Positions 41,803 through 61,840 of a stretch of DNA of 62,009 nt are shown one piece after another. Origin of the DNA: Blautia sp. BIOML-A1 (lineage in GTDB: Bacteria; Bacillota; Clostridia; Lachnospirales; Lachnospiraceae); the NCBI RefSeq assembly GCF_009883055.1, contig NZ_WWVR01000014.1, positions 1 to 62,009 on the forward strand, given 5' to 3'. Numbering within the stretch: the first letter of the stretch is position 1; every line of letters starts with the position of its first letter. A program made the translations under genes and the position numbers. The notes beneath the pieces were generated by a model. That model saw nothing but the letters and a program-made list of their open reading frames with translations, had not been told where the DNA came from and ran no database searches.

Positions 41803-41994
41803 TTGCTGTATGAACAGTATAAACAGATTTCAAAGACGTGTAAAGAAGTTTTCATCGACAAATTCTACGTACATATGCCGAAAATCGTTGAAGAACAAAA
41901 GAAAAAATCGGACAAGTCCGCCTTTGCAGACATATTCCATATGTATCTGGCGTACTCCAAGCAAACTTTGATCAGAGCAATCTTCCACTTTTGA
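41803..41994 (+). other. Orphan 63-aa reading frame, possible gene remnant
   Basis: From a TTG at 41803 a plus-strand frame runs 63 codons (ending IRAIFHF) and overlaps the 3' end of the LMW-PTP gene. Its mix of Lys/Glu/Tyr/Ile looks protein-like (KIVEEQKKKSDKSAFADI), but there is no ribosome site or ATG. It could be the C-terminal remnant of a lost gene. I recognise no family. Confidence 0.25.
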
Positions 41995-42451
41995 CCAGAT
42001 GTTCAAGGAATCCCTCGCAGCCTTTTACAATATCTCTATATGTAATCTCAAAATCCCCAGTATACCACGGGTCTGCAATATTTCCCGGGCAATCGGTATA
42101 ATCCAGCAAAAGACTCACTTTATGCTCCGAATCACTTCCAAGAATCCGAAGCATATTTCGCCGATTTCTCTCTTCCATTGCGATCAGATAATCATATTTA
42201 TCATAGTCAGATTTCTTAAGCTGAACTGCTCGTTTTCCATCACAGGAAATTCCATGTCTGGCAAGTTCCTTCTTCGCCGGAGGATACACCGGATTCCCTA
42301 TTCCATTCCAGATTTCCTCTGTACTCGTTGCAGCAGATGCAATATAGAAATCCGACTGTAGTTGTTTTTTGTTGATCATATTCTTAAATACAAATTCTGC
42401 CATAGGGGAACGGCAGATATTGCCGTGGCAAATAAATAGTATTTTTATCAT
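41972..42451 (-). CDS. Low-molecular-weight protein tyrosine phosphatase
   Basis: A 159-residue LMW-PTP. The signature loop CHGNICRSP (CX5RS) is at residues 8-16, and the catalytic aspartate lies in DPWYTGDF near the C-terminus. Its first ten codons are the integration target of the following element: the 31-base repeat 42421-42451 lies inside the gene. The ribosome site upstream of the ATG (AAGGAG, about 11 bases away) is supplied by the element. So the gene is still intact and probably expressed. Confidence 0.95.
   Translation of the reverse strand: MIKILFICHGNICRSPMAEFVFKNMINKKQLQSDFYIASAATSTEEIWNGIGNPVYPPAKKELARHGISCDGKRAVQLKKSDYDKYDYLIAMEERNRRNMLRILGSDSEHKVSLLLDYTDCPGNIADPWYTGDFEITYRDIVKGCEGFLEHLVKSGRLL
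42421..42451. repeat. Attachment site, left copy (attL of element 1)
   Basis: 31 bases (TGCCGTGGCAAATAAA.. to ..TTTTTATCAT) that recur at 54159-54189 in the same orientation with one mismatch (42437 T against A). They contain codons 1-10 of the LMW-PTP gene. Confidence 0.9.
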
Positions 42452-42567
42452 TGTTCTTATAACTCCTTATCTCTTGTCAAATCCTTGTTTTTACTGTATT
42501 TGTCAGCTTATATCAAAATTCTCTTTTTCTTATATCTTTTCACAATTCCTTATATTTTCCATGGCGT

Positions 42568-42587
42568 TTGGTACAAAAATTGGTACA
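42568..42587. promoter_or_regulatory. Probable integrase arm-binding sites, left end
   Basis: Direct repeat TTGGTACAAAAATTGGTACA, 117 bases inside the left attachment repeat. The same pair, TTGGTACAAAACTGGTACA, stands near the right end (54076-54094), in both cases after a CTTTTCACAATT. The gap 42452-42649 holds only these sites. Confidence 0.5.
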
Positions 42588-42649
42588 TTTTTCTTGAATT
42601 TGGAACATCATAATATTTTCCACTTTCTCATGGCATAAATAATGTGCTT

Positions 42650-43873
42650 TTAAAAATTGACAACTTTTGAAGTCTGCGAATTTGCACGTTTTTCTAGCTG
42701 TTTTAATTCTTGCTGTGCATCTTCCAAGCCTAAATGCGTGTACACGTTCAATGTTACACTAATATCTGAATGCCCCATTAAATATTGCAATGTCTTAGCA
42801 CTTATACCACTTCTAGCCATATTAGAACAATATGTATGTCTGCATATATGCGGTGTAACTGTAGGCATCTGCACTTTGTAAATACTGTTGTACTTCTGGC
42901 ATATATGCTTGAAATAGTGCGCCCAATGCAATCCAACTGACGGATTCCCGTTTTTATCCAGATATAGGAAACCACTTTTACCATCTATCATTGGTTCTAT
43001 ACGTGGCTTCTCTCGTTCTTTGATTATATTTCTGAAATGTTCTTCGACTTCTTTTGTCATTGGAAGAACTCTCTTTCCTGCACTCGTTTTGGTCGGAACA
43101 ATGATATATTCCCCCTCTCGTGTCCGCTGTAACTGATTATTGACAGAAAATGTATGCTCGTCAAAATTAATATCATGCACTGTCAGACCACAAAACTCAC
43201 TGATTCTCAAGCCTGTCTTAAAAAGAATGGATATACCGTCATAATATTTACTGAAATGCCTGTCCTCTTTTACAAAGTTTAAAAATAATCTCTGCTCCCG
43301 TGGTTTCAATGCTTCTCTCTGTACACTGTCATTAATCAATACTTTTGCCAGTTCAAAATTAAATGGATTGTAGCCGATTTCTTCATCTTCAAATGCCATT
43401 TGAAAAGCCGGACGCAACACGCCACGTATAGAATGTATTGCACTATAGCTTCTTCCGTTCTCCTGTAACTTAATCAAGAAAATCTTTGCATCTGAAAATT
43501 TAACCTTATCAATTTGCTTATGTCCGAATTCTTCTTTTTCCAGTATGTTCTGCACCGTTTTATAGCCAGCCTTTGTGTTATGTGTCACGCCCGTTTTAGT
43601 CGTTATATAACGCTCTACAAGCTGACATACCGTTATCTCTGTAGGAATTATACCCTTGCATATTTGCACCTGTAATTCTTGCTCTTGCGCCCTCAGAGAG
43701 GGTGTTGCTTTCTTTCCTGGCGGTGTTGTGTCTGCATTGGTTAATCTCCAACTCCTTATAATGCGACGTTTTCCCATACTATCTGTGTACCGATATGAAT
43801 ACCTCCCGTCTTTCTCTTGATGTTCTCCTGTTTTTAATAGTCTACCTTTATTATCACGTCTCTTTTCGCTCAT
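42650..43873 (-). CDS. Tyrosine recombinase/integrase, Tn916 type (element 1)
   Basis: A 407-residue site-specific recombinase. Order: Tn916-type N-terminal three-strand DNA-binding domain (DNKGRLLKTGEHQEKDGRY), core-binding helices, and the catalytic domain with R in TGLRISEFCGLT, HICRHTYCSNMA (HxxR), the histidine or tryptophan region GHSDISVTLN, and the final tyrosine in LNVYTHLG. The start MSEKRRDN lies after an AAAGGA site. It lies 200 bases from the left attachment repeat, as expected for a self-encoded integrase. It is clearly related to the integrase at 54375. Confidence 0.95.
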   Translation of the reverse strand: MSEKRRDNKGRLLKTGEHQEKDGRYSYRYTDSMGKRRIIRSWRLTNADTTPPGKKATPSLRAQEQELQVQICKGIIPTEITVCQLVERYITTKTGVTHNTKAGYKTVQNILEKEEFGHKQIDKVKFSDAKIFLIKLQENGRSYSAIHSIRGVLRPAFQMAFEDEEIGYNPFNFELAKVLINDSVQREALKPREQRLFLNFVKEDRHFSKYYDGISILFKTGLRISEFCGLTVHDINFDEHTFSVNNQLQRTREGEYIIVPTKTSAGKRVLPMTKEVEEHFRNIIKEREKPRIEPMIDGKSGFLYLDKNGNPSVGLHWAHYFKHICQKYNSIYKVQMPTVTPHICRHTYCSNMARSGISAKTLQYLMGHSDISVTLNVYTHLGLEDAQQELKQLEKRANSQTSKVVNF

Positions 43874-43968
43874 ATTGATTCCTTTCTTTCAAACCGAAAA
43901 GAATGTGACATAACATTTGTTTTAGTATGCCATGTCACACTCCAACCTGTCAATGATTTGCGCATACT

Positions 43969-44175
43969 TTAAATGGCGTCTAGGGAATCTATGAACCTTT
44001 CAAACAAAACACGCTTTATTTGAATACGATTTCCGTTATGCAACAGATATTTTGCATTTGGATTATCATGCACCAATCTCCTTAGTTTCGTTTCTCCAAT
44101 GCGGAAATACTCCGATGCTTCTTCAATAGTCAATGTGTATTGATTCCAATACGGTATACAATTTGTATTTTCCAT
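43969..44175 (-). CDS. Excisionase, Tn916 Xis-like (element 1)
   Basis: A 68-residue protein with the excisionase core [20 protein letters not shown] and a winged turn ([20 protein letters not shown]). It directs the integrase towards excision. The start at 44175 has AGAGG six bases upstream; a longer frame upstream has none. It lies just upstream of the integrase gene on the same strand. Confidence 0.9.
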
Positions 44176-44367
44176 CCTAATCCTCTTTTCTCCATAGTTA
44201 AGCCGATAACTACCAATATTATCGTTATATTTTTTCCATAATTGCTTTTTATTTTCCGTTGTAAACACGAGCATTACCGTGATATGTGTTTACTTTTCCT
44301 CTGTTTTCATGCCCTGTAAACCCTATATTTCCGTACCTTTTCACGTATTTTAAAAAGCAAAAACGTT

Positions 44368-44403
44368 TTGACAACCAATAGATATTTTTGACTTATATGA
44401 TAG
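44368..44403 (+). promoter_or_regulatory. Motif B: TTGACAACC..GACTTAT site, plus orientation
   Basis: TTGACAACCAATAGATATTTTTGACTTAT-type sequence (quoted in part only) that reappears inverted at 48823-48860. It lies in the gap between xis and the 417-residue gene, read towards the 3' end of that gene. It may be a promoter-like or protein-binding site. Confidence 0.4.
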
Positions 44404-44426
44404 AAAAGCCCCTTATTACCGCCCTT

Positions 44427-45680
44427 TTATACTTCTCGGACAATATCCCCAAGGAAAACGGGGACTATCTGATTAAGCAATATCTGTACGCTCATATTTT
44501 TTTCACATGCTATCCATTCCGTAAATAAAGACGGTACTGTATTGTACAAATTCAAAAGCCTGTCCCTGTTATCACACCACTTCCAGAATTGCTTTATCAC
44601 ATCATTTGATACTAAATCCGCATTTCTAACTTCTTCTTTTGGTGTTGGAATGTGACACGAAAACTGATCACGAGTATTAACTATATTTGTCTTTACATGG
44701 GTTGTTATTACCGCTTTACCTAATAACACTTTCTGCAAATCAAGATAATCTTCTGAACTGCAACACTTATAGTAAAAGAACCTGCTGCCACTTCTTATCT
44801 CCAAAATAACAATTTCTCTGCCATCTTCACGCACCATAACAGGAAATGCAGAATAACGTCCAGAAAATGCTTTGATATAGTCACGCATTTGTATATTTAA
44901 GGATTGCTTCATTGCCATTAAATTGCAAGCACAATTATTCCAATTATCTGCATTTACATGGGCGCAATCATTTCCTGTTCCCATGCCCCGACTTGTTTCT
45001 GGAATCCTGCGTATAAAGCCCTCACTACCATAATCTTGATAATACATATATACAAATCTCGATAAATTCATCAGCATATAGCCTTTGCGTCCATGCTTGT
45101 AATGAATCTGTATTCTTTGCCGACTTCCTCTATTTGGAGCAGGCACACATACGCTTCTATCAGCTAATACGGAATACAATTCTGCCGTATAATCTTGTAT
45201 GCTAATGTGTCCGTTTTGATATGTAATAATATATTTTTCTTTGGGATTATTAGGACGGCATATCACATCTACCCATTCTTTCCCACATTCTTGTGGTGCA
45301 AACAGATTTTTCTTTCGTAAATCTATTAGATTATTGCTATAGCAAGACGAATCTAACAGATCAATTCTCTTATAGTCTAATTCATCTGTAGAAAGATTAT
45401 GATAATGTGCATATACATATTTTCTCAACGAAATACTATTTTGACCGTTCTTCTCTTTGAATTTCAACATTCTTCTTTCTTGCCGCTTTTTGTCACAGAC
45501 CAATGCTCCTGTCATTTCCATTTTTTCAATTATGGACTTTAATAATGCTTCATCATGGTTTATTATTTCCTTATGCTTGCTCTTGACGTGTTCAATGCAA
45601 TAGCATACTTCATCTTCATACACAGTTTCATATATGATAATTGTGTTATTAGACGTTGTATATATTATATCTGGATTCAA
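44427..45680 (-). CDS. Unknown 417-aa protein with two degenerate HNH-like repeats
   Basis: I do not recognise a family. Two parts have a similar layout: SLRKYVYAHYHN..IDLLDSSCYSNN..DLRKKNLF (about 105-150) and NLSRFVYMYYQD..CAHVNADNWNNCACNLMAMK (about 225-285). This resembles the strand-helix pattern of HNH/AP2 DNA-binding homing-endonuclease modules (R.VY...H, then ..D.R..NL), but the usual catalytic histidines are mostly absent. The C-terminal half is alpha/beta, with an all-helical end. The ATG overlaps the stop of the upstream zinc-ribbon gene by four bases. So it is the third gene of a coupled operon. Confidence 0.65.
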   Translation of the reverse strand: MNPDIIYTTSNNTIIIYETVYEDEVCYCIEHVKSKHKEIINHDEALLKSIIEKMEMTGALVCDKKRQERRMLKFKEKNGQNSISLRKYVYAHYHNLSTDELDYKRIDLLDSSCYSNNLIDLRKKNLFAPQECGKEWVDVICRPNNPKEKYIITYQNGHISIQDYTAELYSVLADRSVCVPAPNRGSRQRIQIHYKHGRKGYMLMNLSRFVYMYYQDYGSEGFIRRIPETSRGMGTGNDCAHVNADNWNNCACNLMAMKQSLNIQMRDYIKAFSGRYSAFPVMVREDGREIVILEIRSGSRFFYYKCCSSEDYLDLQKVLLGKAVITTHVKTNIVNTRDQFSCHIPTPKEEVRNADLVSNDVIKQFWKWCDNRDRLLNLYNTVPSLFTEWIACEKNMSVQILLNQIVPVFLGDIVREV

Positions 45681-45880
45681 TCATCACTCCCCCTTTCCAT
45701 AATTACAGGAGATACTACGCAAGTATCAATCAATTCTTCCATACAGTCACAACACAAATTTAACTGGATTTTGGAACCATCATATTTTGTTCCATATCCG
45801 CAGATACCATTGATGGAAAAATTCTCCTGTCTATCCCATATATCCATTTCCTTACCACATTTATTGCACCGCATCTTCAC
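45677..45880 (-). CDS. Small zinc-ribbon protein, 67 aa
   Basis: Cysteine pairs CNKC and CCDC (or CxxC..CxxC) near the start and middle suggest one zinc ribbon; the rest is an acidic helix. The preferred start is a GTG at 45880 whose GTGA overlaps the stop of the preceding gene (45877), with AAAGGGG upstream; an ATG at 45874 is possible. Second gene of the coupled operon. Unknown function. Confidence 0.6.
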   Translation of the reverse strand: MKMRCNKCGKEMDIWDRQENFSINGICGYGTKYDGSKIQLNLCCDCMEELIDTCVVSPVIMERGSDD

Positions 45881-46059
45881 AATATGTTTTCCCCTTTCAT
45901 CTTTTGGATAAATTCTCCGATTCTTAAAGCACAATCATCACAAACCTTTATATCCCCTACAGGTGTTTGTAAGCTGTGATAGCTTTCGCTGAATTGGATT
46001 TTATAGTGTGTAATTCCACAATTTTCCTTGCATATATCACATGCAATCTCTTGTCCCAT
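45877..46059 (-). CDS. Small zinc-ribbon protein, 60 aa
   Basis: Starts MGQEIACDICKENCG and ends in CDDCALRIGEF; the two CxxC pairs form a likely zinc ribbon. The ATG at 46059 has GGAGG six bases upstream. First gene of an operon with overlapping stops and starts (zinc ribbon - zinc ribbon - 417-aa protein). Probably DNA- or protein-binding (inference). Confidence 0.65.
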   Translation of the reverse strand: MGQEIACDICKENCGITHYKIQFSESYHSLQTPVGDIKVCDDCALRIGEFIQKMKGENIL

Positions 46060-46167
46060 TTGCAACCTCCGTATTGTTTTCACTGGCAATCTTCCGAAGA
46101 AGAAAAGCAATTTTCAGTTCATAATCCCCTAATAACATGTGTATCAGTAAGTTAGGTCAATTTTTAC

Positions 46168-46315
46168 TGCGTCAAAATTTCCGAGCAATTTTAAAAGTGT
46201 CGAAAAGTCCCATAACCACCGCATTATCAACAGTTTTCCCTGACTTTTTCAAATACTATTTTCCCCGTAAATACCGCATTTTAGAAAACCGCCCCAGTGC
46301 GTCAAAATTTCCGAG
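46168..46315. repeat. Iteron-like 18-bp direct repeats, candidate replication origin
   Basis: TGCGTCAAAATTTCCGAG occurs exactly at 46168-46185 and 46298-46315, 130 bases apart. A DnaA-box-like TTATCAACA (46224-46232) lies in the AT-rich sequence between. The stretch 46060-46330, without genes, stands directly downstream of the RepL-like gene. This is the layout of a plasmid-type origin. Confidence 0.5.
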
Positions 46316-46330
46316 TAGAAAATATATCTT

Positions 46331-47197
46331 TTATTCTTTAAAGAATAATTTCAAAACATCAACACGCCCTTTATTTGAGCCTACATAGAAAACTTCTGGA
46401 TTGATACAAATTCTTGCTGTTCCGCTATCCAGTCCAGTATATGTTAATGCACAAAATCTTTGCTTTTTACCGTTGACATCAAATTCCAAATCATCATATA
46501 TTTTCTTTAATTTACTGATACTGGACGTGTCTTTGTACCCGATGTAATCACAAAAGTCTTTCATCGTTACAAGTTGCACATTATCCAGATCAGCTTCAAA
46601 CGGATTCTCACAAACAACATTCCATTCTCTGTTAATAAACGGAATCAACTGAAACAAATATCCTAAATAATTGTGATTCTTCCCATTCGCAGATTTATAC
46701 AATGAACGTACCCCGTTGAAGTAAAACTGCTGATAATCTATTGCTGTTTTACTTTTCAACTTTCCACGCTTAAATATTTCATCGTTCAACCACAATTTAC
46801 CGGTTTCTTCATCTTCCCGTATATAATAAGCCTTGACACTATTCCAGAATCTTTCACTCGTTCTTTTTGAAACACCTAAGATTTTTGGTAGATCAGACCG
46901 TTTAATCTCTTTTTTAGATTTAGCATTCAAAATCAACAGGTTATCATAAGCCGCATATGTACTAAGATATATCAATTTTGTAACTGTTGACGGGGACAAA
47001 TCCGAAAAATCAAATGTCGTATTAACAAAAATATATCTTTCGCCTTTGCCCCTGTACCTGTTTATCTCATGTTCTTCACGCTCTTTTTTCATTCTGGCTC
47101 TGCGCTGTCGTTCATGTACAGAAATTATGACATCTCCACTGTTTATTTCTCCTACTTCTTCCCCTGTTTCGGTGTCAACTATTGCATATTCACCCAT
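46331..47197 (-). CDS. RepL-like winged-helix replication protein
   Basis: 288 residues: an N-terminal TETGEEVGEI segment, a basic linker, then winged-helix regions (SPSTVTKLIYLSTYA; RSDLPKILGVSKRTSERF) and a second DNA-binding part (MKDFCDYIGYKDTSSISKLK). The architecture resembles RepL or Firmicutes plasmid replication proteins. The identification is by pattern, not by full match. An iteron-like origin follows it. It lies between the radical SAM gene and the zinc-ribbon operon. It may allow plasmid-like copies after excision. Confidence 0.6.
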   Translation of the reverse strand: MGEYAIVDTETGEEVGEINSGDVIISVHERQRRARMKKEREEHEINRYRGKGERYIFVNTTFDFSDLSPSTVTKLIYLSTYAAYDNLLILNAKSKKEIKRSDLPKILGVSKRTSERFWNSVKAYYIREDEETGKLWLNDEIFKRGKLKSKTAIDYQQFYFNGVRSLYKSANGKNHNYLGYLFQLIPFINREWNVVCENPFEADLDNVQLVTMKDFCDYIGYKDTSSISKLKKIYDDLEFDVNGKKQRFCALTYTGLDSGTARICINPEVFYVGSNKGRVDVLKLFFKE

Positions 47198-47245
47198 TTC
47201 TTACATTTTTCCTTTCTTTGTATCGCAATAAATAAAACTAGTATT

Positions 47246-48781
47246 CTATTTTTCTTGAATATTCAACATGGCATTTATGGTATCACTTGCTTTATATTTT
47301 TTTCGGATATCTTCAAGTATCATTTGATGCCGTATTAACTGAATTTTGTCCTCATTACTGGCTCTTCCAGAATAGTATTTAATCCATTTTTCGCTATTGG
47401 CATATCTCACACAATCCTTATGTGACCACTGTGGATGTTGCCCACGTACCATTTCTTCATTTTCTTTTAGAAATATTTCTCCATGTTTATCAAAATATCT
47501 TTTTTCTTTTTTGAAATGCTCTTCGTTTTCTCCACGTTCTACAATATTAGCCAGTTGGGCAATTATTTTTATAAAGCCGCGAGCCTGTGGTGCTTCTATA
47601 GTATTTGCGGTTTTGGCAAGATTCACTAACATTTCTGCTACTTCTGCTTTTTGTCGTTGATATATTCCCTCTTCTCCCAAAAGATGTTTTTCAAAAACTT
47701 CATTAATTATTTTTTTGACTCTTAAAACTCCATCTTCTCCAACGTCATCATACCATTCTTTTACAACAGCAATAGCCTCATCATCTGATATACTATATTT
47801 AGTCCCGTCCTCCGCAAGATTATTAAAATTATCTACATCCACAGCTCGTACTCGTTCGGAATATCCATTGAGTTTTCTATTTATAAACTTAAACCACTTG
47901 ACAATAATATCCCCGTCAAGCAAAGTGTCTTTAACAAGCTGTTTGGCAAGCATACAAGCCACGCAATACTCTGCATCTCGATTATGTTCTTTGATTGCAT
48001 CTATCAAATTTTCACATTCAAGACTAACACCTGTATTGTCTTCCTGTTCAAATTCCATCTGCGAATCTTCTGCATGAAATACACGTCCATAAACAGATAC
48101 ATATGTCGGACACATAATAAGTTCGTCAATTCCATCTTCAAGTCTATAATACTTTCTCACAACACAGTAATGATGTGAATTTTTACTCATGACTTCAATC
48201 TTTTTAAACGGCATATATGCTTCAATGTTTTCATTTGCTTCTTCAAGAGATTCTGCTCTTCCTATCGCAAGCGGTATACTACTAATATCATACAAAGCAA
48301 TTTCCACTAAAGGATACTCCGAAAACACGCTTTTATAGATATCATATGCTTTTTCTGGATTGCCCCCACTTTGTCTATGATATATGTCACTACTTATAGA
48401 AATTATAATCTTATGATTTCCATATTCTTGATTGTATGTAATATAATCATAATATTCCTTTATCAAGGTTGACGTCTCTTCCGAAATATCACACCCATTG
48501 GTAATAAGTCGAAGTTTATGTAATGCAATATTATTTGCTTTCATTTTTTCCAGAAAATATCTCATCCCCTCTAAATTCATAGTTGGTTCACCGCCAGTAA
48601 AAAGTAATGTTCCTATCACACAAACGGATTCCAATAATTTATCTATTATTTTAGGAGACATATTAATGTTCTGTGCATCTCCCCTAAGACAATGTGCACA
48701 CCGTAATTGACATTTTCTAGTTATTTCAACCAGTAAATGATCTATAGCAATCTTTTCTGTTTTAATAAAACTTTCGCTCAT
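47246..48781 (-). CDS. Radical SAM protein of a mobile element
   Basis: 511 residues. The iron-sulphur motif is CQLRCAHC (CX3CX2C, about residues 24-31), followed by LLFTGGEPTMN (SAM-binding GGE) and LRLITNGCDI. Downstream are CPTYVSVYGRVF and YCVACM, possibly cysteines for a further cluster, but not a full SPASM domain. The last 150 residues are helical and charged. The closest visible style is peptide- or protein-modifying enzymes rather than viperin (no nucleotide-type motif). A complete small RNA unit lies upstream and no clear precursor peptide is near. Ribosome site AGAGGAAC. Confidence 0.85.
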   Translation of the reverse strand: MSESFIKTEKIAIDHLLVEITRKCQLRCAHCLRGDAQNINMSPKIIDKLLESVCVIGTLLFTGGEPTMNLEGMRYFLEKMKANNIALHKLRLITNGCDISEETSTLIKEYYDYITYNQEYGNHKIIISISSDIYHRQSGGNPEKAYDIYKSVFSEYPLVEIALYDISSIPLAIGRAESLEEANENIEAYMPFKKIEVMSKNSHHYCVVRKYYRLEDGIDELIMCPTYVSVYGRVFHAEDSQMEFEQEDNTGVSLECENLIDAIKEHNRDAEYCVACMLAKQLVKDTLLDGDIIVKWFKFINRKLNGYSERVRAVDVDNFNNLAEDGTKYSISDDEAIAVVKEWYDDVGEDGVLRVKKIINEVFEKHLLGEEGIYQRQKAEVAEMLVNLAKTANTIEAPQARGFIKIIAQLANIVERGENEEHFKKEKRYFDKHGEIFLKENEEMVRGQHPQWSHKDCVRYANSEKWIKYYSGRASNEDKIQLIRHQMILEDIRKKYKASDTINAMLNIQEK

Positions 48782-48822
48782 AAATGTTCCTCTCTTCTCT
48801 GCTATTTTTTATGTAGGTTCAT

Positions 48823-48860
48823 CTATGCAATAAGTCAAAATATCCATATTCGGTTGTCAA
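48823..48860 (-). promoter_or_regulatory. Motif A: TTGACAACC..GACTTAT site, minus orientation
   Basis: On the minus strand this reads TTGACAACCGAATATGGATA.., and is about 80 percent like motif B at 44368-44403, by eye. It lies between the small-RNA terminator and the radical SAM start, so it could be the gene's own promoter or an operator. Confidence 0.4.
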
Positions 48861-48891
48861 GGTACAATGTGTACGCACTTATTTTTCCAAC

Positions 48892-49009
48892 AAAAAAAGC
48901 GTACACCTCACGGACGTATAACCTTTACAGATTTACGTCTTTGAAATATACGCTTGCTAACAGCTAAGCTATGATATGCCCGATTCGGGTATATGAATAT
49001 TTAATTTAT
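48892..49009 (-). ncRNA. Candidate small RNA or attenuator leader, about 118 nt
   Basis: Between a strong promoter and the radical SAM gene is a short unit without start codons that ends in a nested hairpin: outer GCGTA/TACGC, inner GACGTA/TACGTC, then seven T on the minus strand (48898-48892). A short CCCGA/TCGGG element lies near its start. This is either a free small RNA or a transcription-attenuation leader for the downstream gene. Confidence 0.55.
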
Positions 49010-49015
49010 GTCTTA

Positions 49016-49044
49016 ATTATAGCAAAAACACGACCATATGTCAA
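49016..49044 (-). promoter_or_regulatory. Consensus promoter of the small RNA
   Basis: TTGACA (49039-49044) and TATAAT (49016-49021) on the minus strand with exactly 17 bases between, a textbook sigma-A promoter and the strongest in the window. Confidence 0.85.
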
Positions 49045-49119
49045 AATTCAAGAACCTATAACACAATACATAAAATATTGACTATCAATGACATATAAAA
49101 GTTTACAAAAATTTAACAA

Positions 49120-49308
49120 TTAGGAGTTTTCCAATAACATATCTATTGCCCTGTTTATGAAAGAATTTACTGATTCATTATTGGCTGCTGCCTTTGCCTT
49201 AATAATATCCTTTTTACCGCTTTTTACCATTAAACTGATACGATCATACTTTTCTCTATTAAAGTCATTATTATACTTGTATGCGTCTTTTGCATCCTTA
49301 TATGCCAT
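49120..49308 (-). CDS. Ribbon-helix-helix protein (CopG/Arc-like), 62 aa
   Basis: Basic N-terminus, then a strand (YDRISLMVKSGKKDIIKAKA) and helices (NNESVNSFINRAIDMLLEN), the RHH fold. Start MAYKDA at 49308 after GGAGG. Upstream is a symmetric site GTACAT-GGGAG-ATGTAC that could be its operator. It could be a repressor or a relaxase accessory protein. Confidence 0.75.
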   Translation of the reverse strand: MAYKDAKDAYKYNNDFNREKYDRISLMVKSGKKDIIKAKAAANNESVNSFINRAIDMLLENS

Positions 49309-49336
49309 TTCTGCGCCCTCCTTTTTTCTGGATTTC

Positions 49337-49353
49337 GTACATGGGAGATGTAC
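49337..49353. promoter_or_regulatory. Candidate operator of the RHH protein
   Basis: GTACAT and ATGTAC separated by GGGAG, 29 bases upstream of the RHH start codon and next to an AT-rich -10 region. Confidence 0.5.
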
Positions 49354-49468
49354 CGACTTGTATATAATATATATCAATTCCACGGAACAAAACCAAAACC
49401 ACCCCGTGTGTATGCACCTCATCATTTTCTATAGTATTTTACCATTTTTGCACAAATTTATCAAGCAT

Positions 49469-49554
49469 ATTACTCAATGTATTTTTTCACAAAATTTATA
49501 TAATATCATTGTACAATTTGACAGTTGACGGTACATTACTCAATGTGCTATAGT
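49469..49554 (+). promoter_or_regulatory. Promoter with repeated ATTACTCAATGT sites
   Basis: TTGACG (49525-49530) and TATAGT (49549-49554) with an 18-base spacer form the promoter for the plus-strand genes from 49614. The word ATTACTCAATGT occurs at 49469-49480 and again inside the spacer at 49535-49546, suggesting an operator. Confidence 0.5.
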
Positions 49555-49613
49555 TTAGTCACATCAAACGAAACAACAAATTTTTAGCAAAAGCAAGAAA
49601 GGAAATAAAAGTT

Positions 49614-49889
49614 ATGACAACAGCAGAAATTATTGAAAAGATTACCGAGTTGAAAGAACTGGAGGATATGCTCCATGAACTCAATGCAGAAATTGATTCT
49701 ATTAAAGATTCTCTCAAACATGAATTAAATGAACAGCATTCAGAAGAGCTTATTGCAGGTACGCATATAATCAGATACACAACCGTTATTTCAAACAGAT
49801 TTAATTCAACAGAATTTAAAAAGGTTATGCCAGAAGTATATAAAGCCTATCTGAAACCTGTTACCTCAAAACGTTTCACCGTTGCGTGA
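49614..49889 (+). CDS. Hypothetical 91-aa protein (phage Gam/Gp157-like end)
   Basis: A helical, Glu/Leu-rich first half (coiled coil, about residues 5-45), then a beta region ending SNRFNSTEFKKVMPEVYKAY, a pattern found at the end of phage Gam or Gp157-type proteins. Ribosome site AGAAAGGAAA. It is the first gene of the plus-strand run with ArdC. The function is unproven. Confidence 0.6.
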   Translation: MTTAEIIEKITELKELEDMLHELNAEIDSIKDSLKHELNEQHSEELIAGTHIIRYTTVISNRFNSTEFKKVMPEVYKAYLKPVTSKRFTVA

Positions 49890-49899
49890 ACAGAAAAAA

Positions 49900-49995
49900 G
49901 TCTACACCCCATCGACCAAAACAAAGTGTAGACCTAAGCACAACACTACTACTCAAAGGAGTGAATGCCTATATTGATTATATCGTATTCACTCC
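49900..49995. other. Two hairpins ahead of ardC
   Basis: GTCTACAC / GTGTAGAC (49900-49933) is preceded by an A-run and so would be a terminator on the minus strand. GGAGTGAAT / ATTCACTCC (49958-49995) lies just upstream of the ardC ribosome site and may hide or expose it. Confidence 0.5.
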
Positions 49996-50025
49996 ATCAT
50001 ATCAAGAGATAAAGGAGAGAATACC

Positions 50026-50862
50026 ATGAAAAACAATGTATACCAGATCGTAACAAATAGAATCATCGAACAGTTAAAACAGGGGGTTATTCCATGGCAT
50101 AAGCCATGGACAGGTATCAGAACAAAAGCATTCAACAGAATCAGCCGGAAACCCTACAGCTTATTAAATCAGATGCTTCTTAAACATGACGGGGAATACG
50201 CCAGTTTTAAACAATGGACTGAATTAGGCGGTAAAATTCGCAAAGGAGAAAAAGCGGAGATAGTCGTATTCTGGAAAATATTGGAGGTTGAAAAGGAAAA
50301 CAACGACGGTGAACTGGAAAAGAAAACTGTTCCGTATCTTAGATACGTCAGCGTATTCCATATTTCACAGGTGGACGGCGTAAAGCCATTAGAAGAACCT
50401 TTCCACGAAGTAGAGCCGATTGCAGATGCCGATAAACTTATACTTGACTATGTTACACGAGAAGCAATCAACTTCAATGAACAAGCAAGTAACGAAGCCT
50501 ACTACAGCCCTAGCAGAGATACAATTGTCGTTCCAATGAAAGAACAGTATCAACACATCAATGAATACTACTCAACTACATTCCATGAACTAGTACATAG
50601 TACAGGACACAAGAACAGATTGAACAGACTTGAAACCACTGCTGTTGCTTCATTCGGAAGTGAAACATATTCCAAAGAAGAATTAGTTGCAGAAATAGGA
50701 AGTGCAACGATACTTTCCACATTGGAGATTGAAACAAAGCGAACTTTTACTAACAGCGTTGCATATATCCAGAATTGGTTGAACGTACTTAAGAACGATA
50801 ATCGCTTTATCATTTCAGCTTCAAGCCAAGCAGAGAAAGCTGTTGACTATATACTTGCTTAA
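50026..50862 (+). CDS. ardC: ArdC-like antirestriction protein (zincin)
   Basis: 278 residues: the N-terminal single-stranded-DNA-binding domain (YQIVTNRIIEQLKQGVIPWHKPW) and a C-terminal metallopeptidase-like domain with HEXXH (TTFHELVHSTGH). ArdC proteins protect incoming mobile DNA against restriction. Ribosome site AAGGAGAG. The presence in an element without a relaxase suggests it still benefits from transfer. Confidence 0.9.
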   Translation: MKNNVYQIVTNRIIEQLKQGVIPWHKPWTGIRTKAFNRISRKPYSLLNQMLLKHDGEYASFKQWTELGGKIRKGEKAEIVVFWKILEVEKENNDGELEKKTVPYLRYVSVFHISQVDGVKPLEEPFHEVEPIADADKLILDYVTREAINFNEQASNEAYYSPSRDTIVVPMKEQYQHINEYYSTTFHELVHSTGHKNRLNRLETTAVASFGSETYSKEELVAEIGSATILSTLEIETKRTFTNSVAYIQNWLNVLKNDNRFIISASSQAEKAVDYILA

Positions 50863-50910
50863 TATCTTATGGGCGGTACACCAACCGCCCCACACAGAAA
50901 GGAACATACC

Positions 50911-51012
50911 ATGGAAAAGTTTTTTATTTATATTGGTGTCTGTGTTATCTCTACACTTTTTCCTCCACTGGGATTAGTTGCCCTCTATCTTGCAGATAAG
51001 TATTGCAGATAA
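50911..51012 (+). CDS. Small membrane protein, 33 aa
   Basis: ATG at 50911 after GAAAGGAA, ending TAA at 51012. The peptide is almost all hydrophobic (FFIYIGVCVISTLFPPLGLV) with a short basic end, i.e. one membrane span. It is too short for standard gene finders. Between ardC and the resolvase. Unknown. Confidence 0.5.
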   Translation: MEKFFIYIGVCVISTLFPPLGLVALYLADKYCR

Positions 51013-51041
51013 AACAGACTACACCGTAATTTGACATTATT

Positions 51042-51101
51042 CCATGCAGATAATTCTGTAAAATCAACATTGCTTTTCGCTATCTTTTACAATCTGCATG
51101 G
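51042..51101. repeat. 60-bp interrupted inverted repeat upstream of the resolvase
   Basis: CCATGCAGAT + TGTAAAA in the left arm and TTTTACA + ATCTGCATGG in the right arm; only a five-base bulge (AATTC) breaks the left arm, and the loop is 21 bases. It lies 39 bases ahead of the resolvase start codon. A resolution (res) site or operator is plausible. Confidence 0.55.
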
Positions 51102-51139
51102 TATGTCATGATTTCAATTTTACAAAGGAGCATTTCACT

Positions 51140-51715
51140 ATGAACATTGCATATATCAGAGTTTCCACCGTGGAACAGAACGAACAACGACAAATCGAAG
51201 CAATGAAACCATTTACCATTGAGAAATGGTTCATTGAAAAGATTTCAGCAAAAGATACAAACCGCCCAAAATTACAGGAACTTCTGGAATTTGCACGGGA
51301 GGGAGATACAATTCATGTACATGATTTTTCAAGGTTAGCACGTTCTACCAAAGACCTTTTGGATATTGTAGAACAGCTTACACAGAAAAATATTTATCTT
51401 GTCAGCAATAAAGAAAATATCGACACTTCCACCCCTACGGGGAAGTTGATGCTAACCATGATTGGCGCAATCAATGAATTTGAAAGATACAATCTTTTGG
51501 AACGTCAACGTGAGGGAATAGCTATAGCAAAAAGGAATGGGAAATATACAGGGGGAAAACGAAAAAACGTTCCTAATTTTGAAAACGGATATCAGCGTTA
51601 TTTACGTCGGGAAATATCCAAAGTAGCACTTGCAAAAGAATTAAGAATCAGCAGACCAACACTTGACAAACTTATCAAGGAATACAAGGAGGAACACACT
51701 AATGCAAACAAATAA
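51140..51715 (+). CDS. Serine recombinase (resolvase/invertase)
   Basis: 191 residues: the catalytic serine in AYIRVSTVEQNEQRQ, the conserved arginines in HDFSRLARST and FERYNLLERQREGI, and a C-terminal Hin-like helix-turn-helix (ISKVALAKELRISRPTLDKLI). Start at 51140 after AAAGGAG. In plasmid-like elements it resolves dimers. Its end overlaps the sigma-like gene by 14 bases. Confidence 0.93.
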   Translation: MNIAYIRVSTVEQNEQRQIEAMKPFTIEKWFIEKISAKDTNRPKLQELLEFAREGDTIHVHDFSRLARSTKDLLDIVEQLTQKNIYLVSNKENIDTSTPTGKLMLTMIGAINEFERYNLLERQREGIAIAKRNGKYTGGKRKNVPNFENGYQRYLRREISKVALAKELRISRPTLDKLIKEYKEEHTNANK

Positions 51716-52784
51716 TTTTCAAGAATTGATTAAGGAGTACGAAGCACATTGCCAGAACACCTCAACGCAAGAATATACTGATATTCTGTATGAATTATCA
51801 TTTTCTATAGCTTGTGCCGTTTTAAAAATAGCTGTACTTAAAACAGGCAATCCGCAACTTGCAGATTTAAAATCCGAATTATGTAAAGATTATTCAACTT
51901 TAAGACTGGTTAACTCTGGTACAGTAACTGATTCACGTGATCTTGAATATTTAATACGCAACCCACTAGGAGACGGAATGGACTTAGTTCACACGGCATC
52001 TGCAACACTTATAAATCAGACAAAGCAACATGGAAATATTGTGGAATTTATGGAATCCCCATACAAAGAACGTCGATTGAAGAAGAAAGTCTGGATAAAA
52101 AAAGCAGACAGCGTTAACGGTTGGGAAACTGTAGAAACCACTCCTATACAAGAAGTTTACAAATCTGTTAGGCGTGAGATAGAAAACAGCCGAGCAATGA
52201 GCACAGACGCAAGGAACGGATATACATATTTAGAAGAAATAGCACAGGATGGCGAAACAGGCGAGAAAACACAGGTATATAAACGCTTAATCAAATATGC
52301 TGATCTAGGTGGCTGTGCTATGGTTTCCCCCTATGACAGTGTTGAAAATACGGTATTAAATCACAGTATTGGAAGACAAGGTACACTATATAGCGCGGAT
52401 ATTTCTACAGCGCAAAATATAGACCAGATGATAGAATGTTTGTCACTTACACAAAAACAATCCGTGATTCTACATTTACGATTAAGTGGATATGGTTTTA
52501 AAGCTATATCAACATACCTTGGTATTACATCCGAAGCCGCACGAAGTACAATGAAAGGTGTACAGAAAAAGGCAATATCTGCATTGCAATTACCAGATTA
52601 CCTTATTGAACAACTGCAAACGGTAAATCATAATAACAAATTAACCAACAATGACAAGGCGACTATCAAGCAAATGTTTGATGACGGTTATACAATGGCT
52701 TATATTGCCGAACAATTCAATGTTTCCAAAATGACAATCAGCCGTGTTATAAATGGTCGGAAAGACAGGCAGGTAGGGAAGTAG
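51702..52784 (+). CDS. Sigma-factor-like protein with two HTH motifs
   Basis: 360 residues. A middle part resembles sigma-70 region 4 (LTQKQSVILHLRLSGYGFKAI, STYLGITSEAARSTMKGVQKK), and the C-terminus has a second Hin/resolvase-like HTH (AYIAEQFNVSKMTISRVING). The N-terminal 230 residues show no clear region 2. It may be a positive regulator or a DNA-replication regulator. Start 51702 after AAGGAGGA; overlap with the resolvase implies coupled translation. Confidence 0.65.
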   Translation: MQTNNFQELIKEYEAHCQNTSTQEYTDILYELSFSIACAVLKIAVLKTGNPQLADLKSELCKDYSTLRLVNSGTVTDSRDLEYLIRNPLGDGMDLVHTASATLINQTKQHGNIVEFMESPYKERRLKKKVWIKKADSVNGWETVETTPIQEVYKSVRREIENSRAMSTDARNGYTYLEEIAQDGETGEKTQVYKRLIKYADLGGCAMVSPYDSVENTVLNHSIGRQGTLYSADISTAQNIDQMIECLSLTQKQSVILHLRLSGYGFKAISTYLGITSEAARSTMKGVQKKAISALQLPDYLIEQLQTVNHNNKLTNNDKATIKQMFDDGYTMAYIAEQFNVSKMTISRVINGRKDRQVGK

Positions 52785-52785
52785 C

Positions 52786-52983
52786 ATGTACATTCATGTT
52801 GATACAATCGAACAATACAAAGTTCTGCAATATATTAAACGGCACTTTTTCATGGATAAAATAACCATAACCAAAATCAATCAAACCTCTCTCTGCGTTA
52901 CCGACTATACCAATGAATGCTTGATATTCAGATACTTTAACGGAACAATAATCACACATGAAGCAAAAAACAGGGGATTTTAA
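52786..52983 (+). CDS. Hypothetical 65-aa protein
   Basis: A small protein starting two bases after the sigma-like gene's stop, with mixed alpha/beta character and two cysteines; no membrane segment. Not recognised. It is followed by a strong terminator, which supports its being the last gene of the plus-strand run. Confidence 0.55.
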   Translation: MYIHVDTIEQYKVLQYIKRHFFMDKITITKINQTSLCVTDYTNECLIFRYFNGTIITHEAKNRGF

Positions 52984-52997
52984 CCGCCCCTGTTTTT
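52968..52997. terminator. Bidirectional terminator
   Basis: AAACAGGGG / CCCCTGTTT with A-run and T-run on the two sides, between convergent genes. Confidence 0.85.
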
Positions 52998-53017
52998 CTT
53001 TCTTTAAAATAAGCATA

Positions 53018-53695
53018 TTACCACATATGTTTACACCGATTACATTTATACTGTTTTCCTATTGTGGATGAAGCTACGCCTAAAGTAGCCGTTGACACTG
53101 CCCTATTAGTAACCGTTATTCTCTTAGTATTTTTACTTCCACAATTCGGGCATTTAGGGTGCTGAGCATCTTGCAATTCCTGTTGTTTTTTTGCCAACTC
53201 TGCCGCCCTGACCTTGCGTTCTTCAACTTTCTTCTCATAACTATCTACGCTTTGTTTTACTAGTGTAAGGTCTTCACGTGCTTGATTTTTTGCATAGATA
53301 GTAACAATCCAGGCTATTCCACAAAAGAATGTTGCAAAACCACAGAACAGTATTGCAAACCCCAGATCACCGTTCTCACTGTAATTCCAACTCAAAACCG
53401 TTAAGACAGCAAAAAGCAATGTTAAAATTGCCAGAACAGGAATTGTTCTTGTATTGCCTTTTATCTGCATTTCCAATTTTGTAACGGCATCTCTCTGACG
53501 TTGTTCTTCTGTAGCCTTTTTTTGCCGTTCTTCTAAAATTCTCTTTTCATTTTCTGCTTTCAATCTAGCCTGTTTAGCTTCTTCTTCCCTTACTCTTTGA
53601 TAATGGTTCTTTATTGCATAACCACAATTAGGACAAGCTTCTGCGGTATCGGAAACATTTTCTCTTCCGCATTCTGGACATTTTACCAGTGCCAT
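53018..53695 (-). CDS. Membrane protein with zinc ribbons at both ends
   Basis: 225 residues. N-terminal zinc ribbon (VKCPECGRENVSD..CPNCGYA), a charged coiled-coil (RVREEEAKQARLKAENEKRI), two membrane segments (TIPVLAILTLLFAVLTVLSW; LGFAILFCGFATFFCGIAWIV), another coiled-coil, and a C-terminal zinc ribbon (HPKCPNCGSKN..YKCNRCKHMW). Both ends should lie in the cytoplasm. The function is unknown; such proteins are frequent in Clostridia genomes and elements. Confidence 0.75.
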   Translation of the reverse strand: MALVKCPECGRENVSDTAEACPNCGYAIKNHYQRVREEEAKQARLKAENEKRILEERQKKATEEQRQRDAVTKLEMQIKGNTRTIPVLAILTLLFAVLTVLSWNYSENGDLGFAILFCGFATFFCGIAWIVTIYAKNQAREDLTLVKQSVDSYEKKVEERKVRAAELAKKQQELQDAQHPKCPNCGSKNTKRITVTNRAVSTATLGVASSTIGKQYKCNRCKHMW

Positions 53696-53804
53696 ACACT
53701 GCCTCCTGTGTATTCGTATTTTAATATCGTTTTAGTATTCGTTTTCTGAATATATATTATCATATCAAAATAAACTACAATTATCAAGAGAGGTGGTGCA
53801 TAAA

Positions 53805-53981
53805 TTGGAAAAATTCATTGCTTACAAACCAGAAAAAGAAGTAATATCTTTACGCATTCCAATAGAAATATTAAGAGACATAGATAATAAATCAGCAACC
53901 ATTGGCATCAGCCGAAATGAAATGATTAATCAGATGATAGTTTATGCCCTTAGAAACATGGACGACACTTTATCAGAATAA
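53805..53981 (+). CDS. Ribbon-helix-helix protein, 58 aa
   Basis: A short strand (KEVISLRIPIEILRDIDNKS) and helices (GISRNEMINQMIVYALRNM) give the RHH fold. Start is probably the TTG at 53805, after AGAGGTGG; a GTG at 53793 is too close to it. It is the last gene of element 1 and may regulate excision or serve as an antitoxin-like repressor. Confidence 0.6.
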   Translation: MEKFIAYKPEKEVISLRIPIEILRDIDNKSATIGISRNEMINQMIVYALRNMDDTLSE

Positions 53982-53999
53982 TAGCGGATAAAAAAAAGA

Positions 54000-54023
54000 G
54001 GACTGATTTTTCAGTCCAATTTT
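54000..54023 (+). terminator. Terminator after the RHH gene
   Basis: GGACTGA / TCAGTCC with a TTTT loop and a following T-run. Confidence 0.8.
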
Positions 54024-54075
54024 TGTATACGCTATATGATTATTAAATGTTATGTCACTTCTTTTCACAATTTCA

Positions 54076-54094
54076 TTGGTACAAAACTGGTACA
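54076..54094. promoter_or_regulatory. Probable integrase arm-binding sites, right end
   Basis: TTGGTACAAAACTGGTACA, the partner of the left-end sites, 64 bases inside the right attachment repeat. Confidence 0.5.
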
Positions 54095-54144
54095 AATATA
54101 AGTTGTTCTCACAGATAACTCCATGATATACAGAACTTTAGAGA

Positions 54145-54189
54145 TTAAAACAAACTACTGCCGTGGCAAATAAAAAGTATTTTTATCAT
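54145..54189 (-). pseudogene. Vestigial 5' end of LMW-PTP at the element 1/2 junction
   Basis: The ATG at 54189 begins MIKILFICHGSSLF and stops after 14 codons; the first ten are those of the LMW-PTP gene. It has a GGAG ribosome site from element 2. It is a by-product of tandem integration at this site. Confidence 0.75.
54159..54189. repeat. Attachment site, middle copy (right of element 1, left of element 2)
   Basis: 31 bases equal to 42421-42451 except for one base. It forms the right boundary of element 1 and the left boundary of element 2. Confidence 0.9.
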
Positions 54190-54328: not shown

Positions 54329-54376
54329 TTGGTAAATCCGTTGGTAAAGCAAGCGTCCTTACCAACGGGCTTTTTT
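54329..54376. other. Arm-like repeat and hairpin at the end of integrase 2
   Basis: TTGGTAAATCCGTTGGTAAA (54329-54348) repeats TTGGTAA at a 12-base distance, like the element 1 arm sites. The second copy also forms a stem CCGTTGGTAA / TTACCAACGG (54338-54368) followed on the plus strand by six T. So it could be both an arm site and a plus-strand terminator. Confidence 0.45.
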
Positions 54377-55574
54377 AACTATTCGCTATCCGATATACTT
54401 CTTCCTTTGCATCATCAAAATTTACATGGGTGTAAGTGTTCAAGGTTACACTGATGTCTGCGTGACCCATGATATACTGCAAGGTTTTTGGATTCATCCC
54501 GGATTTTGCCATATTAGAGCAAAAGGTGTGCCTGCATACATGAGGGGTAACTTTCGGCATCTGGATACGGTAAATTTTATTGTATTTCTGAATGATATGC
54601 TCCAGATACTTCTCCCAATGAAGGGCAACCATCGGCATATCGTTTTTATCCAGAAACAAAAATCCGGCATATCCTTCCACCATCGGCTCAACCTTTGGCG
54701 TCTTTCGGTTGGCAATGATTCTGCGAAAACACGCTGCAACAGCTTCTGTCATCGGTACATATCGAATACCTTTGTCTGTTTTCGGTTCTTCGATCACATA
54801 CTGCATCTGTGCAGTACGCTGTAGCTGATGGTCTACCTTGATACGCATTTCTCCATACTCAATTTCTGAAACTGTCAGCCCACAGAACTCTGAGATACGA
54901 AGCCCTGTGTGAAAAAGAATATAGATTGCATCATAGTATCTGCTGAAATGCTTATCTTCCTGAATAAACTTCAGCAAATCTCTCTGCTGCTTTCGGGTAA
55001 TCGCTTCTCTGGTAACAGAATCATTGACAATGACGGATGCAAGCTCAAATTCAAATGGATTTTTACGAAGCAGGTCATCATCGACTGCCATCTGAAATGC
55101 CGGTCTTAGAACTCCCCGGATAGAATGAATGGAACTGTATCCCCGTCCATCAATCTGCTGGAGCTTAATCAACCATGCCTTTGCATCTGACAAACGCACC
55201 TTATCAATTCGCAGATTCCCAAAACTCTCTTTTTTCAGCATATTGATGACCGTTTTATATCCGGCAACCGTATTGTGACGAACTCCTGTTTTCAATGAAA
55301 CATATTTTTCTACCAGTTCCAAAACAGTATAGTTGCCGCCGTTTGTTACGATACGGTCAAACAAATCCGCTTCAATCTGTTTTTCTTTCTCACGCAGGGA
55401 AGGCTCCCGCTTCTTCCCTTTTGGCATTGGGTCATTCTTGTCCAAACGCCAACTGTATACATTTTTCTCTTTTCCGTCCTCATCAATATAGCGGAACCGA
55501 TACCTCCCATCTTTACGCTGGTACTCGCCCTCTCGCAAAATCCGATTACGGTTATCTCGTCTTTTCTCACTCAT
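54375..55574 (-). CDS. Tyrosine recombinase/integrase, Tn916 type (element 2)
   Basis: A 399-residue integrase very like the one in element 1 along the full length: MSEKRRDNRNRILREGEYQ at the start, TGLRISEFCGLTVSE, HVCRHTFCSNMA and the final tyrosine in LNTYTHVN. Start 55574 has AAAGGAG. Because both integrases resemble each other, they probably recognise the same 31-base site, which explains the tandem arrangement. Confidence 0.95.
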   Translation of the reverse strand: MSEKRRDNRNRILREGEYQRKDGRYRFRYIDEDGKEKNVYSWRLDKNDPMPKGKKREPSLREKEKQIEADLFDRIVTNGGNYTVLELVEKYVSLKTGVRHNTVAGYKTVINMLKKESFGNLRIDKVRLSDAKAWLIKLQQIDGRGYSSIHSIRGVLRPAFQMAVDDDLLRKNPFEFELASVIVNDSVTREAITRKQQRDLLKFIQEDKHFSRYYDAIYILFHTGLRISEFCGLTVSEIEYGEMRIKVDHQLQRTAQMQYVIEEPKTDKGIRYVPMTEAVAACFRRIIANRKTPKVEPMVEGYAGFLFLDKNDMPMVALHWEKYLEHIIQKYNKIYRIQMPKVTPHVCRHTFCSNMAKSGMNPKTLQYIMGHADISVTLNTYTHVNFDDAKEEVYRIANS

Positions 55575-55684
55575 CGTGAACTCTCCTTTCAAAAAAGAGA
55601 GCCAGACTTGCGCTCTTATCATAGCACAAATCCAGCTCTCCGCATAGTTATATCATGTGAAATCGGTAAATCTGTCAGCTCTGT

Positions 55685-55918
55685 TTACACAGCAGTAGCC
55701 TGATCCAGATACCTCTCAAATTTCTCACGCTTAATGAGGGCACGATTGCCGTTCATCACATAAAAATCCTCATTGGGATGTGTGTCAATAAGCGTTCTCA
55801 ATTTTCCTTCGCCGATATGATAATATCTGGCTGCTTCCTCAATGGTAAGCGTATATCTACGCCACACCGGAACATCCGAGTAATTTTTTCCTTCAATATT
55901 CATCTTATTATTCGCCAT
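55685..55918 (-). CDS. Excisionase, Tn916 Xis-like (element 2)
   Basis: 77 residues with [20 protein letters not shown] and the wing (VMNGNRALIKREKFERYLD), clearly a paralogue of the excisionase at 43969. Ribosome site GGAGG. It stands upstream of the integrase in the same order as in element 1. Confidence 0.92.
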   Translation of the reverse strand: MANNKMNIEGKNYSDVPVWRRYTLTIEEAARYYHIGEGKLRTLIDTHPNEDFYVMNGNRALIKREKFERYLDQATAV

Positions 55919-55962: not shown

Positions 55963-56244
55963 CGGCAACGAAGTCCGGCAACGGGCTTCAAAAGACCTTG
56001 CAAACAATCTCAATCTGGCACTACTTACTATTTATACTTTTCTTTTATTTTTCTGTTGTTTTGGTTGTTATAAGGGAGAAAAGCTAATAGTTTCGGGGTT
56101 TTCCCCGGCAACCGGCGCGGCAACGGGATAGCAACAGGGGATGCAACGGGCTGTCATTTTCAGAATGGAAGCTCCATCTGTTCTGTGACCTCCACAAAAC
56201 CGTCCATCGTTTTTTCAGACGGGTTGCCGGAGTCCGTTGCCGGG
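55963..56244. repeat. Cluster of CGGCAACGGG-like repeats
   Basis: About eight copies of a G/C-rich CGGCAACGGG-type word at 55963, 55975, 56105, 56116, 56131 and 56143 and in the opposite sense at 56223 and 56235. The last two are inside the end of the VapE gene. Iterons or a replication origin are a possibility. No gene is seen in 55919-56159. Confidence 0.45.
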
Positions 56245-59756: not shown

Positions 59757-59779
59757 TTCGTATCCCTCCTTTCTATGCT

Positions 59780-61778: not shown

Positions 61779-61840
61779 ATGAACGGAGCTACTACAATAC
61801 AGGAACGGCTAAAAGATTTACGATTAAACAAAGGAGTGAC
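61779..61840 (+). pseudogene. XRE-family regulator interrupted by IS605
   Basis: Start ATG at 61779 after AAGGGGG; MNGATTIQERLKDLRLNKG is the typical opening of the Cro/C1-type HTH regulator found in these elements. After about 19 codons the frame runs into the insertion-sequence end and stops at 61865 after ..VTCSHHLNL. The rest of the gene should lie beyond the insertion, outside the window. Confidence 0.8.

Follow-up and report, generated by a model that had tools for sequence, protein, structure and literature searches.

Background

Accretion of mobile elements at a shared site is itself a known phenomenon. According to passages of the review PMC5704250, integrative mobilizable elements (IMEs) can be found in tandem with integrative and conjugative elements (ICEs), with prophages, with decayed elements or with one another, and composites of them can be excised and transferred. 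Here we describe such a locus in a stretch of 62,009 nucleotides of Blautia sp. BIOML-A1 (contig NZ_WWVR01000014.1, positions 1 to 62,009), which as a whole we call the window. We consider, with a probability of about 0.86, that two separate integrative elements have accreted there at one attachment site, namely the first 31 bp of a host gene encoding a low-molecular-weight tyrosine phosphatase (PTP). The observations behind this reading are the repeats, the gene content, the recurrence of the site, the pairing of the arm sites and a leader motif.

The locus resembles the accretion of ICEs, IMEs and cis-mobilizable elements (CIMEs) outlined in that review, i.e. different elements, integrases of similar specificity, one site and core repeats in between. 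However, the accretion examples in those passages use 3' ends (tRNA-Lys, thdF), whereas here the 5' start-codon end of PTP is used. A precedent for targeting the 5' end of a gene is given by the SpyCI islands, which in the parts of PMC3430984 and PMC4689407 that concern us lie at the 5' end of mutL and cut the gene off from its native transcription; the title of PMC3430984 names a promoter encoded by the island. As presented there, SpyCI are phage-like islands of Streptococcus pyogenes at mutL, whereas the present elements are of ICE/IME type, belong to Lachnospiraceae and bring a motif like a ribosome-binding site (RBS) to PTP. Regarding the integrases, the closest system is the Tn916/Tn1549 subgroup: both integrases of the window have the N-terminal PF02920 arm-binding domain and the Phage_integrase catalytic domain, and the elements have a Tn916-type Xis and paired arm repeats. 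Tn916 is described in passages of PMC4701971 as having low target specificity; unlike it, the integrases studied here recur at one conserved core. Among the open-access papers listed by our searches, none pointed to PTP as an integration site by its title, the start of its abstract or its term counts.

The attachment core at the start of the phosphatase gene

The original prediction for this stretch had placed two integrative elements in tandem inside a phosphatase gene, with a 31-bp repeat framing the first of them. The repeat pair is indeed there: the copies at 42421-42451 and 54159-54189 are on the same strand, agree at 30 of 31 positions and bound element 1, of around 11.7 kb. They extend to 34 bp with 2 mismatches, and a search of the whole window allowing up to 3 mismatches returned these two copies only (0 expected from 100 shuffles). 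The position within the gene has to be corrected. On the minus strand the repeat is the ATG and first codons (MIKILFICHG) of a 159-aa PTP, which matches PF01451 over the full profile (E 2.8e-32). The repeat amounts to the opening 31 bp of the gene and the element lies immediately 5' of the complete gene, so PTP is not split; the insertion is at its 5' end and the coding sequence is whole and uninterrupted. Copy 2 is a PTP stub of 14 codons.

41972..42451, minus strand, host PTP gene, coding sequence whole, first 31 bp = attachment core (PF01451 full length; relatives)
42421..42451, minus strand, attachment core copy 1, left end of element 1 and PTP start codon (repeat search)
54159..54189, minus strand, attachment core copy 2, right end of element 1 and left end of element 2, 14-codon PTP stub (repeat search)

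Each core copy has on its right a Tn916-type integrase (PF02920 and PF00589) and a Tn916-type Xis. The GC content shifts near both copies, being about 0.38-0.45 in the host, 0.32-0.38 in element 1 and 0.45-0.51 in element 2 past its integrase. Repeats, gene content and composition therefore support a tandem of two integrative elements that share one site. Each Tn916-subgroup integrase, together with its Xis, would presumably bind its own arm sites at both ends and recombine the core that both elements have in common; that the elements excise, form circles and are transferred is predicted from these genes and sites. An Rfam scan of 41900-62009 gave no match.

Recurrence of the site in other genomes

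For a sample less biased than the collected PTP loci described below, 200 genomes were drawn evenly from the family of Blautia wexlerae MSK.20.46 (G001), the presumed host family, with thresholds of E<=1e-30 for PTP and E<=1e-100 for integrases like that of element 1. PTP was present in 149 genomes and the integrase in 47, with 54 integrase matches. Two thirds of the latter (36/54) lie at most 600 bp upstream of PTP on the same strand, with a median gap of 194.5 bp, and they come from 36 different genomes of the 149 with PTP. As for the rest, 2 are at around 2 kb, 2 are farther away on the contig and 14 have no listed PTP on their contig and strand. Among integrases at least 50% identical to that of element 1, 31 of 40 were within 600 bp upstream of PTP.

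We also collected PTP loci in two sets that overlap in species: the best 80 of 236 from genome contigs, and 47 loci from 45 genomes (46 of the 64 genus genomes matched; G043, with PTP at a contig end, was left out). A whole or partial integrase match was found at most 650 bp upstream of PTP in 24 of the 80 and 23 of the 47 loci. Less than 700 bp of upstream sequence was available for 14 of the 80 and 12 of the 47, and one genome (G015) is scored as having no integrase though its second PTP copy has one 323 bp upstream.

The site can also hold more than two cores. The 12 genomes or loci with such arrays were picked for examination after earlier hints. In G064 a single 4.69-Mb contig has five core copies, one at PTP and the others 38.5, 51.6, 63.4 and 149 kb upstream, the first interval being a larger element whose genes include ones of VirD4, VirB6, CHAP and relaxase type. 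Same-strand copies number five also in G047 (one with 4 mismatches), four in G011 and three in G009. There are two in G010, in addition to the core copy at PTP 115 kb on, and one in G018, in addition to the core copy at PTP 122 kb on; G044, G040, L045, L061, L063 and L038 have two each, L063 having a third on the other strand and L038 having no integrase match. With up to 4 mismatches allowed, a Markov control sequence of 600 kb contained no core. Integrase matches are still present next to many of the outermost cores, and a tblastx comparison of the G064 array flank with the upstream DNA of 16 loci gave no match.

Three IMG/VR contigs filed as viral (L188, L194 and L197) carry an integrase of this type, with a core of the PTP start at most 750 bp away; instead of phages, these contigs may represent integrative elements.

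Arm sites

Near each element end a direct repeat of about 9 bp occurs twice, with a spacing of 11 bp on the right and mostly 12 bp on the left. The arms of element 1 contain TGTACCA at both ends and the left end of element 2 contains TTTACCA; in the relative of element 2 in G064 both ends have TTTACCA, and its neighbours there have TTTACTACT and TTACACCTT. The arms TTTACTACT, of element A in G064, resemble what we take to be the Tn916 arm site. The motifs of the two elements of the window, TGTACCAA and TTTACCAA, agree at seven of eight bases.

The left-arm dyad was at the expected place in 26 of 32 distinct integrase-bearing left ends, some of which are near-copies (200 control sets: mean 0.8, maximum 4). 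Over 21 core-to-core intervals, pairing each end with its own partner gave a sum of 862, above all 20,000 permutations (mean 762). Private arms are a plausible explanation of how stacked elements would remain separable. Because the motifs of elements 1 and 2 are so close, cross-use of their arms is possible, and for the same reason we dropped the idea that the arm sites make composite excision impossible.

Element 1

Element 1 (42452-54189) has an integrase, framing direct repeats and one arm-site type at both ends, as an integrative element should. Besides some small proteins, its features are the following.

42452..42475, minus strand, leader with Shine-Dalgarno-like AAGGAG before the PTP start codon (leader comparison)
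42569..42587, plus strand, left arm sites, 2 x TGGTACA, 12 bp apart (arm-site search)
42650..43873, minus strand, integrase of the Tn916 subgroup, 407 aa, open throughout (PF02920, PF00589; matches the solved Int chains 1b69 and 6emy, the latter presumably Tn1549 Int)
43969..44274, minus strand, excisionase, Tn916-Xis (PF09035)
44427..45680, minus strand, 417-aa protein with no Pfam, PHROG or PADLOC match (14 relatives)
46331..47197, minus strand, 288-aa protein with no Pfam match (phrog_9501, unknown function; 14 relatives)
47246..48781, minus strand, cargo, radical SAM protein, 511 aa (PF04055)
50026..50862, plus strand, ArdC-like antirestriction protein (PF08401, PF18818)
51143..51715, plus strand, small serine recombinase (PF00239)
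51708..52784, plus strand, sigma-r4/helix-turn-helix (HTH) regulator, 358 aa (Pfam scan)
53018..53695, minus strand, zinc-ribbon protein (Pfam scan)
54077..54094, plus strand, right arm sites, 2 x TGGTACA, 11 bp apart (arm-site search)

A Pfam scan of its 14 open reading frames (ORFs) found no relaxase domain. The claim that element 2 has a relaxase and element 1 does not therefore holds among the ORFs scanned, the relaxase of element 2 being a MobQ. We do not class element 1 as an IME, for want of a recognised relaxase in these ORFs; IMEs that have none are mentioned in passages of PMC5704250. One of the two proteins with no domain match may be an unrecognised transfer protein. In the 417-aa protein a possible HNH-like motif was spotted by eye, and a replication initiator is our guess for the 288-aa one.

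The lack of a relaxase domain could also mean that element 1 is a decayed, cis-mobilizable remnant which moves only with a helper, and decayed elements are common tandem partners in passages of PMC5704250. Nevertheless, element 1 has an open integrase of 407 aa, an Xis, both cores and paired arms at both ends, and relatives of it are found in other contexts, so we regard decay as improbable, although element 1 may need a helper for its transfer.

Regarding these relatives, the left 433 bp of element 1 (97% identity) are at the PTP gene of G029. The left half (88%) is present in G025, where it begins at a core. On the other side of that core is what looks like the right end of another element, since this sequence comes after cores in G010 and G018 too. 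The right part (96%) is found in G025 as well and reaches window position 54156, 2 bp short of the core. The PTP of G025 (L001, apparently Blautia sp. MSJ-19) is the closest found among the best 80 of 236 loci and the genus genomes, at 81-82% identity. Megablast of element 1 against plasmid and phage records gave no match. The radical SAM cargo had matches at E<=1e-3 in 89 of 397 family genomes, nearly all weak and over the generic SAM domain (best 3.4e-20, residues 17-139), and among viral contigs none of 34 stretches was confirmed as a relative of it.

Element 2 and the third core copy

Element 2 begins at 54190 and runs past the window end. As had been proposed, it starts at the second repeat copy with a related integrase, 57% identical to that of element 1.

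54330..54348, plus strand, left arm sites, 2 x TGGTAAA, 12 bp apart (arm-site search)
54375..55622, minus strand, integrase of the Tn916 subgroup (PF02920, PF00589)
55685..55918, minus strand, excisionase (PF09035)
56160..57554, minus strand, VapE-like protein (PF05272)
57466..58110, minus strand, CHC2 zinc-finger, primase-like protein (PF01807)
58176..59756, minus strand, MobQ/MobL relaxase (PF03389; NF041496)
61836..62009, no strand assigned, end of repeated sequence inside an HTH gene (G001 contig matches)

The relaxase scores 239.8 bits against NF041496, for which the NCBI cut-off is 200. The last 174 bp or so of the window recur on seven G001 contigs, in at least four cases at the end of the contig, and are probably from an insertion sequence; the HTH gene that holds them reads on in contig C78 of G001. 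Because the window ends in repeated sequence, the right end of element 2 and any third core are hidden. The third core copy that the original prediction looked for on the right is thus absent from the window, but it is present in the G064 relative of element 2. This relative is 95% identical over 5.7 kb and 93% over a further 1.55 kb, and it has a core on both sides, 13,053 bp apart, with matching arm sites at both ends; no conjugation gene was found in six further ORFs scanned in it.

In G001 (L010) and G036 the integrase of element 2 (99%) is directly at PTP, and in G058 the left end is there as a 78-aa integrase piece at a contig end. The G036 contig runs for 17 kb with no second core, even with 5 mismatches allowed. 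A partial VirD4-type ORF lies on it, and longer forms of element 2 therefore probably exist; such an ORF is also on contig C78 of G001, which may or may not be linked to the PTP contig of that genome. Element 2 of the window may be the short or the long form. It has a site-specific integrase and excisionase and a left core in the window, a right core being seen in the G064 relative only. We consider it either an IME with a MobQ relaxase or an ICE cut off by the window end.

A related module was found in another bacterial family. Vescimonas fastidiosa NZ_AP023416 (L264) matches 72% of a 7.6-kb element 2 query at 94.6% identity, in two pieces (query 1725-7546, window 55914-61735). Like element 2, its conjugative region carries the VapE-CHC2-MobQ module; however, there the module is flanked by a VirB6-like and a VirD4-like gene and has a serine recombinase next to it, and the match has no PTP-type int-xis, whereas in the window the module follows the int-xis pair of the PTP site.

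In G036 the element 2 relative is followed on its contig by genes whose domains are of APH and AadA type, which in Pfam are families that modify aminoglycosides (L130 15312-18249, contig C14).

The original prediction suggested furthermore that both elements could form a composite unit, which would excise between copy 1 and an unseen third copy and be transferred through the relaxase of element 2. The core is the same on both elements, the relaxase was found in element 2 only, cross-recognition is plausible with arm motifs one base in eight apart, and passages of PMC5704250 report both composite CIME-ICE transfer and the excision of an IME in tandem despite very different attachment sites. Nevertheless, the left end of each element type is seen without the other (element 2 in G001, G036 and G058; element 1 in G029 and G025), as a set the arms match better within an element than between elements, and no third copy is visible within the window. 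Moreover, the composite must pair the left arms of element 1 (TGTACCA) with right arms of the element 2 type (TTTACCA in the G064 relative). We hold that movement as a composite is possible but rather unlikely.

Weighing the two-element reading

Several results weigh against two separate elements accreted at one attachment site, and they are gathered here.

i) The exact junction at copy 2 was seen in this window only, and misassembly through the 31-bp repeat is possible. The repeat would then be a segmental duplication or an assembly chimera of the PTP start and not an attachment site. Against this, it is just the gene start that recurs in other genomes, mostly by integrases or arm-bearing ends and five times in G064, and the Markov control held none; such an origin is very improbable.

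ii) Own left ends ranked first in just 12 of the 21 intervals (ties included), own ends ranked first in both directions in 9, and no dyad was found in 2. This imperfect ranking is perhaps due to several intervals holding more than one element.

iii) In G025 the right part of element 1 (L246, about 12900-13024, contig C31) is followed by a partial transporter gene with no recognisable core, a junction which may reflect integration at a secondary site or a rearrangement.

iv) No clean pair of empty and occupied sites was found, and two scans of viral contigs for single-element junction patterns returned nothing.

v) The integrases of the PTP site could not be maintained as one clade: the label needs 10 changes on the tree, and 17 of 500 shuffles were as low. 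We started from 59 distinct integrases and dropped 8 undecided ones and near-copies, leaving 43 (27 with a core at most 750 bp away and 16 with none), a biased sample collected round PTP in which some of the 16 have a core around 2 kb off.

Leader and effect on the phosphatase gene

A Shine-Dalgarno-like 4-mer was found 5-20 bp before the PTP start in 30 of the 32 left ends, versus 202 of 1,570 windows of the same size elsewhere in these leaders. The leader of element 2, TGGAGATATAAAAAG, is identical before PTP in G001, G036 and G058 and before the stub of the window, and therefore it belongs to the element. An insertion at the start of the gene leaves the coding sequence whole and would replace the native leader by the left end of the element with its RBS-like motif, and PTP would then be read from the leader of the innermost element. 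Regarding transcription, promoter-like sites at the two integrase ends were not above shuffles (11 versus 8.2, standard deviation 3.2; 2 versus 4.1, standard deviation 2.1), and one 9-of-12 promoter-like site is within the element 1 leader. PTP may be transcribed by read-through from int, and the elements may control its expression.

Taking all loci together, we suggest tentatively, as a possibility short of even odds, that the PTP start codon is a docking hub throughout the Lachnospiraceae, where elements with a shared core and private arms stack with no cross-excision and the innermost one controls the translation, and perhaps the transcription, of PTP. If this were true, a conserved host enzyme would have been put repeatedly under the control of mobile elements. 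Such a hub would be more interesting than a single tandem: the one-off case becomes a recurrent natural experiment, with the same gene start, many integrases and cores spread over up to 149 kb. One could then ask whether differences in arm sites keep stacked elements separately mobile and whether insertions at a start codon rewire the host gene. In addition, copies of the PTP start are a simple landmark by which the limits of ICEs and IMEs can be set in gut bacteria that are common.

Split integrases

Tn916-type integrase genes of this kind are often split at the codons of the HxxR box, while both integrases of the window are open. The 18 loci examined gave 14 C-terminal pieces with the motif, and 13 of them, from 12 distinct places, share one foreign end at their beginning, L170 being the exception. 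These loci are L168 and L257 (G029), L162 (G004), L171 (G046), L174 (G017), L148 (G014), L155 (G045), L178 (G001), L180 (G026) and L181 (G018), together with the contig ends L146/L034 (one place, G002) and L179. Of 21 loci, 9 have no serine recombinase match, mostly at contig ends, and 12 match a large serine recombinase, L182 and L128 being one place with 22-24% identity. The distance between the match ends of the recombinase and the integrase piece was around 70-140 bp in nine of the first ten listed and 507 bp in L257. A family of serine-recombinase elements seems to target the catalytic codons of Tn916-type integrases.

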